Positions 12,933-15,864 of a DNA stretch of 64,000 nt are shown here, in pieces. Within the stretch, counting starts at the first letter, position 1. Every line of letters starts with the position of its first letter. A model generated the notes under the pieces. The model did not search any database. It was not told where the DNA came from and worked only from the letters and a program-made list of their open reading frames with translations. A program made the translations under genes and the position numbers. The DNA comes from Ferranicluibacter rubi (GTDB lineage: Bacteria; Pseudomonadota; Alphaproteobacteria; Rhizobiales; Rhizobiaceae), in NCBI RefSeq assembly GCF_011603255.1, contig NZ_JAANCM010000001.1, positions 248,001 through 312,000 on the forward strand. Reading direction: 5' to 3'.

Positions 12933-14225
12933 TCAGGCGAAGCGCTTGATCGACAGGCTCTGCAGGTAGGCTTCCGGGTTTGCCGGGTCGAAGGTCTTGC
13001 CGTCGAAGAAGGTCTCGAGCCCACGCGATGTGGAGGCGGGCACGTCGGTGATGCCGAGATCCTTGGCGGCGGCGCGCCAGATGTCCTCGCGGTTGACCTT
13101 GGAGATCAGCGCCTTGATGTCGGTGTCCGGTGCATATTTGCCCCAGCGCATATCCTCGGTCAGGAACCAGGCGTCATGGCTCTGGTAAGGGTAGGAAGCG
13201 TGGTCGGCCCAGAACTTCATGAGGTGCGGGCTCTGGTCGACCACCTTGCCGTTGCCGTAGTCGTACTGACCCTTCAGGCGGCCGACGATGTCCTTGGCCG
13301 GCACGTTGAACCAGGCACGCTTGCCGATGATGGCGGCCAGCTCGTCCTTGTTGGCCATGTCGTCGCACCATTGCTGGGCTTCCATGATGGCCATGGTCAG
13401 CGCCTTGGCGGCATTCGGGTTGGCTTCGACCCAGTCGCTGCGCATCGCGAAGGATTTTTCGGGGTGCTTGTCCCAGATCTCGGCCGTGTTGACCGCGGTG
13501 TAGCCGATGCCCTGGTTGACCAGCTGCGCATTCCACGGCTCGCCGACGCAGAAACAGTCCATGGTGCCGACCTTCATGTTGGCGACCATCTGCGGCGGGG
13601 GAACGACGATGGTTTCGACATCCGTATCCGGATCGATGCCGCCAGCGGCCAGCCAGTAGCGGATCCAGAGATCGTGCGTTCCGCCGGGGAAGGTCATTGC
13701 GACCTTGGCAGCCGTGCCCTCGGCCTTCTTCTTGGCGAAAACTTCCTTCAGCACGCCCGAGTCGATGCCGACCTTCAAATCCGCATAGGCCGAGCCGACG
13801 GAGATCGCCTGGGCATCGAGGTTGAGCCGGGCGAGGATGGACATGGGCAGCGGCTGGTTGTTCTGGGTCACCTTGCCGGCCGAGATGAGGTAGGGCATGG
13901 GGGTGAGGATATGCGCGCCGTCGATGCCGTTGCCGGCCGAGCCGAGCACCAGATTGTCGCGCGTTGTGCCCCAGGACGCCTGCTTGACGACATTCACCTC
14001 GGTCATGCCGTGCTTGTCGAAGAAGCCCTTTTCCTTGGCGATGATCAGTGGCGAGCTGTCCGTCAGCGCGATGAAGCCGAGCGTTGCCTTGGTGGTTTCC
14101 GGCCCTGCGCCTTGCGCAAAGGCGCCACTGGGGAAAGCAGCCTTCATGGCCGTGAGGAGCGCTGCGGTGGCCGTGGTCTTGAGGATCGAGCGGCGGCTCA
14201 GGGACGGGGTCGGAATGCGGGTCAT
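12933..14225 (-). CDS. nrtA: Nitrate ABC transporter substrate-binding protein
   Basis: A 430-residue periplasmic nitrate-binding protein. A Tat-type signal is visible (SRRSILKTTA followed by a hydrophobic Ala/Leu stretch ending near FAQGAG), so it is probably exported folded. Family motifs include WIRYWLAAGGIDPD and CFCVGEPWNAQL, part of the anion site in NrtA/CmpA proteins. The start at 14225 has GAGGATAT upstream. It is the first structural gene after the sigma54 promoter and structured leader. It is the same length as NasS (430 residues) and clearly paralogous, but NasS has no signal peptide. Confidence 0.93.
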   Translation of the reverse strand: MTRIPTPSLSRRSILKTTATAALLTAMKAAFPSGAFAQGAGPETTKATLGFIALTDSSPLIIAKEKGFFDKHGMTEVNVVKQASWGTTRDNLVLGSAGNGIDGAHILTPMPYLISAGKVTQNNQPLPMSILARLNLDAQAISVGSAYADLKVGIDSGVLKEVFAKKKAEGTAAKVAMTFPGGTHDLWIRYWLAAGGIDPDTDVETIVVPPPQMVANMKVGTMDCFCVGEPWNAQLVNQGIGYTAVNTAEIWDKHPEKSFAMRSDWVEANPNAAKALTMAIMEAQQWCDDMANKDELAAIIGKRAWFNVPAKDIVGRLKGQYDYGNGKVVDQSPHLMKFWADHASYPYQSHDAWFLTEDMRWGKYAPDTDIKALISKVNREDIWRAAAKDLGITDVPASTSRGLETFFDGKTFDPANPEAYLQSLSIKRFA

Positions 14226-14274: not shown

Positions 14275-14393
14275 AAAAAAACGCCGCTCGGAAAATGCAT
14301 CTCAAGGAGCCTGAAGCTCCGGAGCAAAAACCTTGCGACGTCGGTGTCATTGGGTGAGCGCGTCTTGCGCTCTTTCGCTTCAATCGCCGTTGA
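14275..14393 (-). promoter_or_regulatory. nrtA leader RNA with tandem hairpins and U7 tract (candidate NasT antitermination site)
   Basis: On the transcribed strand, downstream of the sigma54 promoter, the leader holds: a small hairpin TCAA-CGGCGA-TTGA (14393-14380); a strong hairpin GAGCGC-AAGAC-GCGCTC (14372-14356); a third hairpin GGAGC-TTCAG-GCTCC (14320-14306); and GAGCGGCGT running into seven U residues (14289-14275). The 3' half of the second hairpin can instead pair with GAGCGGCGT (eight pairs, one bulge), giving a mutually exclusive structure next to the U tract. ANTAR proteins such as NasT bind paired hairpins in nas leaders and prevent termination. By hand folding, only the first loop has six bases and neither exactly shows the A1/G4 loop consensus. 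Confidence 0.6.
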
Positions 14394-14410
14394 CTGAGCA
14401 GTGTCTTACA

Positions 14411-14426
14411 AGCAAGTGGCGTGCCA
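14411..14426 (-). promoter_or_regulatory. Sigma54 (RpoN) promoter of the nrt-nir-nas operon
   Basis: TGGCACGCCACTTGCT on the minus strand matches the -24/-12 consensus TGGCAC-N5-TTGC exactly. GG (14425-14424) and GC (14413-14412) are separated by ten bases. Transcription would start near 14400, leaving a leader of about 175 nt before the nrtA ATG at 14225. This fits nitrogen-starvation control through NtrC. Confidence 0.88.
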
Positions 14427-14571: not shown

Positions 14572-15864
14572 TCAGGCGTCGTCGCTGAAGGAGCCCGCAA
14601 CCCGCTCGTAGCGGACGGGAAAGGCGGCGACATAATCCGGGATGGCCTGAGGATCGAAGGTGAAGCCATCCATGAAGCGGTCGCCGAAGGATGTCCCTTC
14701 CGCCCTGAGATCGGCATCGGCGGGGCCTGTACCCAAAGCGGCGCGATAGAGATCGGGCCGGTAGGCCGAGAGGGCCTTTTCCGCCAGCGCCGGCGACCAC
14801 TCGGCCTGCCCCCAGCGGAGCATTTGGCTATAGGTCCAGAGCGCGTGGCTCGGCCGGGGATAGTTCGCAAAGCCGCCATGGAAGGTGAAGTAATCCGGGA
14901 TCACCCGACGCTCGCCGGTATCATCGAGGCTGAACTCGCCGGCGAGCACCCGGCGGATGATATCGACCGGAGCGGCGATGTAGTTCGGCTGCGCGAGAAG
15001 CGCTGCGAGTTCGTCGTGGTTTTCGCCCCTGTCGCACCACCGGGCGGCGGCATCCAGCGCGACCAGCAGGCGGGACACGGTTTCGGGATGGCTCTCCGCC
15101 CAGTCCGGCCGCATGCCGATGACCTTTTCGGGCGCCGACGGCCAGATGTCCTGTTTGGCGGCGACGATGCGGCCGACGCCGCGTTCAGACGCCACCATAT
15201 TCCAGGGCGCCCCGACGCAGAAGCCGTCGATGGCGCCTGCGGCCAGCGCATCGGAGGTCAACGGCGGGGGAACGACGACGAGCTTCACGTCGAGGTCCGG
15301 ATCGATGCCGCCGGCGGCGAGCCAGTAGCGGAACTCGTAATTGTGAGACGAGAACGGATAGGTCATTCCGAAGGTGGGCGGCGCCTCGCCGGCATCCCGC
15401 ATCCCGTCGAGAACGCGGCGGAGCACCCTTGCATGCGCGAGCGCATCGGCGCCTTCCGGCGCGCCTGCGTCGCGCATGCGGGCAAAGAGCCGGGTCGAGA
15501 GCGTTATGGCATTGCCGCCGCGCCCCAGCGAAAACGGCGTGATCGTCGGCGACGGATTGGAGCCGAGCCCCAGCATGGAGGCAACGGGCATCGGCGAGAG
15601 CATATGGGCAATGTCGAACTGGCGAAATGCCAGGCGGTCCCGCACATTGGCCCAGGACACGTCCCGCACGAGGTCGAGCGCCAGTCCCTCGCGGGCCGCG
15701 AAACCAAATTCGGCCGCCGCAATCAGCACGGAAGCATCGACAAGCGGAATGAAGCCGGCCCTGAGGACGCGTGCACCCTCGCTCTTCGCACCGCGTGCCG
15801 GTGCCGCAAGGGCAGCGCCGGGCGCCGCAGACGCTGCGCCGGGGGAGATCAGCGTTGTCGTCAT
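14572..15864 (-). CDS. nasS: Cytoplasmic nitrate/nitrite sensor NasS
   Basis: A 430-residue NrtA-like binding protein without a signal peptide. The N-terminal about 30 residues are an Ala/Pro-rich tail, then VLRAGFIPLVDASVLIAAAEFGFAAREGL. The anion-site region FRYWLAAGGIDPD and GFCVGAPWNMV parallels NrtA. NasS proteins sense nitrate or nitrite in the cytoplasm and hold NasT inactive when the ligand is absent. It lies 43 bp downstream of nasT in the same direction and directly upstream of the operon promoter. The ATG at 15864 has GGAGG nine bases upstream. Confidence 0.9.
   Translation of the reverse strand: MTTTLISPGAASAAPGAALAAPARGAKSEGARVLRAGFIPLVDASVLIAAAEFGFAAREGLALDLVRDVSWANVRDRLAFRQFDIAHMLSPMPVASMLGLGSNPSPTITPFSLGRGGNAITLSTRLFARMRDAGAPEGADALAHARVLRRVLDGMRDAGEAPPTFGMTYPFSSHNYEFRYWLAAGGIDPDLDVKLVVVPPPLTSDALAAGAIDGFCVGAPWNMVASERGVGRIVAAKQDIWPSAPEKVIGMRPDWAESHPETVSRLLVALDAAARWCDRGENHDELAALLAQPNYIAAPVDIIRRVLAGEFSLDDTGERRVIPDYFTFHGGFANYPRPSHALWTYSQMLRWGQAEWSPALAEKALSAYRPDLYRAALGTGPADADLRAEGTSFGDRFMDGFTFDPQAIPDYVAAFPVRYERVAGSFSDDA

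Follow-up and report, generated by a model that had tools for sequence, protein, structure and literature searches.

The window analysed here, a 64,000-nucleotide stretch of the Ferranicluibacter rubi genome, carries on its minus strand nasT and nasS, a 346-base gap, and then nrtA, nrtB and an nrtC/D-type ATPase gene, the last two matching TIGR01183 and TIGR01184, respectively, above cut-offs (Table 1). NrtA is 99% identical to its homolog from Rhizobium sp. PP-CC-3A-592 and 95% identical to that of Leaf371. The putative nasS is named from its position adjoining nasT and from 34% identity to NrtA (tblastn, NrtA as query). The leader considered here, also on the minus strand, is bounded by a sigma-54 box and the nrtA start codon and is downstream of nasT and nasS, which thus stand beside the operon as is expected of a NasS-NasT leader. 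Besides nasT, one ANTAR gene was found in the genome; it (L002, contig C39 of G000) adjoins a binding-protein-like gene resembling AmiC, and the two look like an AmiC-AmiR pair, a name given by resemblance.

Table 1. Features of the nrtA leader and neighbouring genes in the window
Feature	Position	Strand	Evidence
nasT, receiver and ANTAR antiterminator protein, 195 aa	15908..16495	(-)	Pfam PF00072 and PF03861, above cut-offs
nasS, nitrate/nitrite sensor, NMT1_2 (NrtA-like) fold (putative)	14572..15864	(-)	Pfam PF13379
Sigma-54 -24/-12 box, TGGCACG-CCAC-TTGC	14412..14426	(-)	single exact match in window, 0.02 expected
P1 hairpin, loop AACGGC at 14391-14386 (A1, G4)	14376..14400	(-)	minimum-energy fold; RNAalifold
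Spacer hairpin, GAGCGC[AAGAC]GCGCUC	14356..14372	(-)	folding z, covariation
P2 hairpin (antiterminator), loop ACCGAC at 14345-14340 (A1, G4)	14336..14349	(-)	GAC[A..G..]GUC in 79/82 leaders
Terminator 5' arm, GACGUCGC, overlaps P2 loop and 3' stem	14335..14342	(-)	covariation helix 3
Terminator 3' arm, GCGGCGUU	14280..14287	(-)	RNAalifold, covariation count, window fold
U7 tract of intrinsic terminator	14275..14281	(-)	sequence; T-run in rows of A1
nrtA, nitrate-binding protein of ABC importer, first gene behind the switch	12933..14225	(-)	Pfam PF13379

Sigma-54 promoters follow the consensus TGGCACG-N4-TTGC, with GG at -24 and GC at -12. A box matching the consensus in at least 9 of 11 bases and lying 160-250 bases ahead of the start codon was present at 90 of 114 loci with a close nrtA and was exact in 77, compared with 11 of 2280 shuffled upstream regions. 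No box in this range was found at the other 24 loci, which include the 12 Bradyrhizobium loci, Aureimonas, Methylopila, Ancylobacter and others, so not every nrtA is built like that of the window. Judged from the position of the box, transcription would start near 14401. The activator NtrC recognizes the palindrome TGCAC-N7-GTGCA; scored against this palindrome, 48 of 82 upstream regions reach 8-9 out of 10 compared with 10 of 82 shuffled regions, and the window scores only 7.

The 90 loci with a box yielded 82 distinct leaders, from which 51 representatives of less than 88% identity were drawn; 48 of these form alignment A1, in which the window stands for L003 and from which the diverged L058, L110 and L111 were left out. 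The folding energy of the window leader is -47.3 kcal/mol, compared with -39.8 kcal/mol for shuffled sequences (z -2.15; 3 of 200 shuffles were as low). This agrees with an earlier reading of the sequence alone (the original prediction), which had placed three hairpins and a U7 tract in the nrtA leader, and which had included neither the exact sigma-54 box nor the hairpin that we call P2. The first hairpin, P1, is CAGUC[AACGGC]GAUUG plus an outer extension. Its six-base loop has A at position 1 and G at position 4 (A1/G4) in 82 of 82 leaders, in eight versions; the search pattern already demanded A1/G4, so that paired percentages are partly given by construction, which double changes are not. 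P2, which is GAC[ACCGAC]GUC in the window, has ten loop versions among the 79 leaders that possess it, with positions 1 and 4 alone invariant. Two of the three exceptions are Methylobacterium leaders (L110, L111), where by eye P2 and the terminator appear to be spelled differently and to lie at a shorter distance, and both were found by the short-form model introduced below.

P2 shares its 3' half with the 5' arm of an intrinsic terminator, in which GACGUCGC pairs with GCGGCGUU ahead of the U tract. RNAalifold, given the 48 leaders and no structure, draws P1 with its loop together with the pairing of the two terminator arms; P2 is missing from the drawing because it competes with the terminator and a nested fold must omit one of them. 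The original prediction had held that the loops do not follow the A1/G4 rule exactly, and that either the fold was misread or the target is a variant. The loops of P1 (in the minimum-energy fold) and P2 both obey the rule. The ACCGAC loop escaped notice because P2 shares bases with the terminator, and the apparent breach of the rule probably arose from reading the middle hairpin as the second recognition hairpin. The fold had therefore been misread, and the target is indeed a variant, by virtue of a spacer helix between P1 and P2 rather than of a departure from the loop rule.

Covariance across nrtA leaders had been proposed as a check on this fold, and the stems of P1, the terminator and the middle hairpin, which had been taken for the second one, do covary. 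In the 48 leaders, double changes occur at 18 of the 30 pairs of the named structure, and none of 500 shuffles attains even one of the five measures used; when partners are slid by 1-3 columns, pairing falls from 85.5% to 39-43%. P1 has double changes at six of nine pairs. Helix 3, which contains the terminator arms, has 99.8% of cells paired and double changes at three of ten pairs; the arms themselves are near-invariant, with compensated changes of C-G to A-U in one leader and of A-U to G-C in another. The GAC/GUC stem of P2 never varies in the 48 aligned leaders, and there is thus no covariation support for P2 in that set. Among the 35 sequences of alignment A2, which comprises short-form NasT leaders and narK leaders, the P2 stem does covary, with A-U in place of G-C at one pair in 17 sequences. 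A2 keeps 35 of the 42 short-form sequences after removal of near duplicates and a few more; its P2 stems had been pre-selected for three pairs, which partly fixes the paired percentages but not the double changes.

On its own P2 is weak (-2.2 kcal/mol), and the terminator form of the window leader is more stable, at -47.0 kcal/mol, than the form in which P1 and P2 are enforced (-38.6 kcal/mol). These computed energies are what would be expected of a protein-dependent antiterminator, and are also compatible with a P2 of no importance. By eye, the apical loop of the terminator often reads CCUCC or CUCCC (L010, L019, L022 and others), neither of which occurs in the window; in read-through RNA such a loop could pair with a purine-rich ribosome site preceding nrtA.

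The middle hairpin lies between P1 and P2. Over 79 leaders its mean folding z is -2.1, with values below -1 in 64, and it has double changes at six of seven pairs; 72% of its cells are paired, the alignment being partly out of register. Its sequence varies widely among relatives and its loop is not conserved. The distance from the P1 loop to the P2 loop is 45-49 nt in 72 of the 79 leaders and 51-56 nt in the other seven; between the stems, measured from the longest contiguous P1 stem, there are 21-41 nt. Six leaders (L009, L028, L030, L032, L034 and L050) form a subgroup with loop spacing of 54-56 nt, and in several of them the spacer helix may be lengthened by an additional outer stem, GAUG/CAUC (by eye). 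P1 of the window extends to 14376, the spacer hairpin covers 14372-14356 and P2 starts at 14349, leaving 26 nt between P1 and P2. Since only 9 of these (3 + 6) stay unpaired when the spacer is folded, the spacer may allow a long insert to keep a workable geometry. An A1/G4 hexaloop between P1 and P2 is absent from 64 of the 79 long-form leaders, and 6 of the 15 leaders having one belong to the genus of the window. There, a further A1/G4 hexaloop, GCG[AAAGAG]CGC, overlaps the middle hairpin in six of seven genomes (L003-L008), lying at 14378-14367 on the minus strand of the window.

In the original prediction, the switching strand was the 3' half of the middle hairpin (14356-14363), which would pair alternatively with 14289-14281 just before the U tract. 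Five contiguous pairs can form in the window, the GCG[AAAGAG]CGC loop overlaps the middle hairpin in most genomes of the genus, and in L037 and L038 the scanner described below can pair an arm of that element with the region of the terminator. Across the 48 leaders, however, 57.8% of cells are paired in this switch, hardly above the 55.9% of shuffles (55 of 500 reach it) and far from the level of helix 3, and the middle hairpin changes its sequence widely whereas the terminator arm hardly changes. Double changes show no excess in this pairing, a count that covers only the register of five contiguous pairs in the 48 leaders. We therefore regard this switch as highly improbable. The core of the original prediction, a NasT target combined with a terminator/antiterminator switch, is strongly supported by the hexaloops, the overlap between P2 and the terminator, covariation, and the adjacent nasT and nasS.

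NasT was detected in 64 genomes of a class sample and in 88 of an order sample, the two samples overlapping, and 80 NasT regions were taken, 75 from other families and 5 from the family of the window. They were examined with a scanner that demands a long ungapped terminator stem and that recovers 69 of the 82 known leaders and 0 of 1640 shuffled ones. Places scoring at least 42 points were found in 35 of the 80 regions, the 45 regions without one being no evidence of absence given the stem demanded; no block-shuffled region reached 40 points. Loop spacing is 18-29 nt in 26 of the 37 places, with linkers of 0-10 nt, and 41-73 nt in the remaining 11, where the insert can fold. Counted by region, a short pair (18-29 nt) is found in 25 and a long form only in 10; L150, one of the 11 long places, also has a short pair. 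Both P1-P2 spacings thus occur among NasT leaders. Genome G133, of the same family as the window, has the long form before nrtA (L033, 47 nt) and the short form beside nasT (L184, 19 nt), the latter preceding an open frame for a NarK-like transporter, named by resemblance. Only one NasT was found in G133 among the best 16 and the best 8 of 38 candidates, which suggests that a single NasT may serve leaders of either spacing. Within that family the long form is not universal, three further members (L169, L170 and L207) having the short form.

The short-form model does not recognize the window leader (12.8 bits, E 0.43), scoring it below seven other places in the window. When other NasT targets were sought in the genome, model R1 returned only the window leader, with the next candidate at E 6.6 (among the best 150 of 4910 first-look candidates), and the best place for short-form model R2 had E 0.05 and lay inside open reading frames (among the best 150 of 6318 first-look candidates). 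Over 387 genomes of the class, R1 found eight marginal places besides that of the window, with E between 1e-4 and 0.01. Three of the eight genomes (G035, G504 and G555) are in the NasT list, and G035 alone has its place next to nasT.

A recognizable sigma-54 box with room before P1 is present in 15 of the 25 short-form leaders, and the intervening stretch is predicted to form another hairpin (mean z -1.8). The loop of this hairpin lies 32-40 nt behind the start of the box (32-37 nt in 13 of 15), compared with 34-37 nt for the P1 loop in the relatives of the window. Its distance to the P2 loop is 42-47 nt in 10 of the 15 (38-57 nt over all). By a strict test, the upstream hairpin has an A1/G4 hexaloop in 5 of the 25 short-form leaders, compared with 0.66 expected, and the first and last loops are 45-57 nt apart. 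These positions, rather than a tree, suggest that the leaders share a three-hairpin scaffold and that the hairpin partnering P2 varies from lineage to lineage. They also bear on whether the middle hairpin of the long form is a third working part, either a hairpin at which polymerase pauses long enough for NasT to bind or the descendant of a third NasT-binding hairpin. Its covariation, its folding better than shuffles and the short-form leaders with three A1/G4 hexaloops in a row are consistent with such a role; its unconserved loop and the rarity of an A1/G4 hexaloop between P1 and P2 in long-form leaders argue against it, and we consider it possible but somewhat doubtful.

At the gathering threshold no Rfam family matched anywhere in the window. 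At a relaxed threshold the leader (14335-14425, minus strand) matched RF03032, the narK RNA, with 29.0 bits and E 0.0005 to 0.0009, below the gathering score of 43.2, and with a 21-nt insert in the spacer-hairpin stretch; no match is listed for the genome of the window in a phylum search at E 0.001. The RF03032 consensus starts with GGCACAGCUCUUGCU, which reads as a sigma-54 box (GGCAC...UUGCU), followed by a hairpin with the loop AACGGC and then by CGACAAAGACGUCGC, which can be folded as CGAC[AAAGAC]GUCG. The parts thus come in the same order as in the window, with CGACAAAGACGUCGC in the place of P2, a stretch that the Rfam structure line draws unpaired. We took 30 of 43 narK RNA places (L208-L237). 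A script found a P1-type A1/G4 hairpin in 28 of the 30, although the loop that it picked in one of them, L216, is spurious; a P2-type A1/G4 hairpin with at least three pairs is present in 26 and a terminator using the P2 arm in 24. The exceptions include L213, with G at position 1 of the P2 loop, and L222, L236 and L237, with a mismatch in the P2 stem. From its sequence, RF03032 appears to be a sigma-54 promoter joined to the P1 and P2 hairpins of a NasT/ANTAR target.

The distribution of RF03032 points the same way. At E 0.001 it matches 25 of 377 genomes of the phylum, 19 of them over the cut-off. NasT is detected at E no greater than 1e-15 in 24 of these 25 genomes compared with 107 of the 352 others (Fisher p 4e-11), events that are not independent because 20 of the 25 genomes come from one family; the majority of NasT genomes lack an RF03032 match. 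All 25 genomes with a match yielded an ANTAR gene. At least one RF03032 RNA lies within 8 kb of an ANTAR gene in 24 of the 25, G1024 being the exception, and 10-221 bases behind the gene in 9 of those 24. In G910 (L229, L238), the one genome of the 25 without such a NasT match, a narK RNA lies 174 bases behind an ANTAR gene in an open frame of 451 residues, longer than NasT; this gene is possibly of the NasR (NIT-ANTAR) type, and the narK RNA type may serve both NasT and NasR-type regulators.

The narK RNA was reportedly published as an orphan motif, and a link to ANTAR proteins is not stated in titles or beginnings of abstracts among the literature matches listed. A Bradyrhizobium NasT paper predicts NasT hairpins in narK leaders (PMC6759348). 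That Rfam lists this related RNA as a cis-regulator with no partner named, together with strong conservation, a terminator and nitrate genes, would suit a riboswitch that binds nitrate or nitrite without any protein. The invariant loop residues are nevertheless those of ANTAR targets, an ANTAR gene was found in each of the 25 genomes with RF03032 matches, and by eye the alignment of 48 leaders contains no conserved junction beyond the hairpins described, which makes a riboswitch extremely unlikely.

Many alphaproteobacterial NasT leaders could be built of three hairpins in tandem, set at a constant distance from a sigma-54 promoter, with NasT using the last, the antiterminator, and one of the other two. 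The middle hairpin would carry the A1/G4 loop in many of them; in the nrtA leaders of the window and its relatives the first would do so, the middle one having decayed to a spacer, and NasT would bridge loops 45-49 nt apart across a helix. Leaders with all three loops would be intermediates, a single protein may recognize either spacing within the same cell, and the narK RNA would be the short form of the same composite rather than a riboswitch. We offer this scheme tentatively, as a proposal with a little less than an even chance of being correct.

ANTAR dual-hairpin RNAs, the targets of EutV, NasR and AmiR, are alike to the window leader, as far as the parts of Ramesh et al. (2012, PMC3369931) used here describe them, in having two hexaloop hairpins with A1/G4, in the use of the 3' half of P2 as the 5' arm of an intrinsic terminator, and in lying upstream of nitrogen genes with an ANTAR gene present. 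They differ in the linker: a conserved extra hairpin splits P1 from P2 in the window, whereas Enterococcus faecalis eut leaders have 5-12 nt (PMC3369931), and an excerpt on actinobacteria accepts 2-25 nt (PMC8164766). The 26 nt of the window falls outside both ranges. In the same account of EutV targets, natural linkers are 5-12 nt and one of 14 nt drastically cut induction (PMC3369931), an obstacle that the long form must overcome.

With NasS-NasT control, as given in the passages drawn on here for Paracoccus denitrificans (PMC3795266, PMC5424462) and Bradyrhizobium diazoefficiens (PMC6759348), the window shares nasT and nasS adjoining a nitrate operon and a structured leader; unlike in the published systems, nrtA, which belongs to an ABC importer, comes first in the operon. 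Those passages do not give the P1/spacer/P2 layout or the comparative evidence presented here. According to them, P. denitrificans NasT binds nasA leader RNA in vitro (PMC3795266), and two hairpins, HI and HII, lie 137 and 91 bp upstream of nasA (PMC5424462). Their published spacing of 46 bp is near the loop spacing of the relatives of the window. Mutation of HI severely lowers expression, whereas mutation of HII hardly changed expression on nitrate and doubled the level on ammonium (PMC5424462). The HII result, as reported there, does not fit HII being only an antiterminator P2.

The promoter, hairpins, P2/terminator overlap, covariation and gene neighbourhood computed here make it very probable that the leader is a NasT-controlled transcription attenuator before nrtA, with NasT binding, the nitrate response, termination and the role of the spacer as its predicted parts. 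Sigma-54 RNA polymerase would start near 14401, presumably under nitrogen limitation. With nitrate absent, NasS would hold NasT, and the nascent RNA would fold GACGUCGC onto GCGGCGUU and terminate in the U tract. With nitrate or nitrite present, NasS would release NasT, a dimer of which would bind the AACGGC loop of P1 and the ACCGAC loop of P2 and keep P2 closed. The terminator arm would thereby be withheld, and polymerase would read into nrtA and the genes behind it. The spacer hairpin may keep the geometry workable in spite of the long insert between P1 and P2.

By its sequence, the element belongs to the familiar class of ANTAR antitermination leaders and varies it by a conserved structural feature, the spacer helix between P1 and P2. 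ANTAR recognition has been taken to need two close hairpins, and a layout split by a helix is a natural test of how a dimer may span RNA. The orphan Rfam motif RF03032 becomes a testable NasT target, and for rhizobia the leader offers a defined candidate for a nitrate switch, open to mutation one base at a time.
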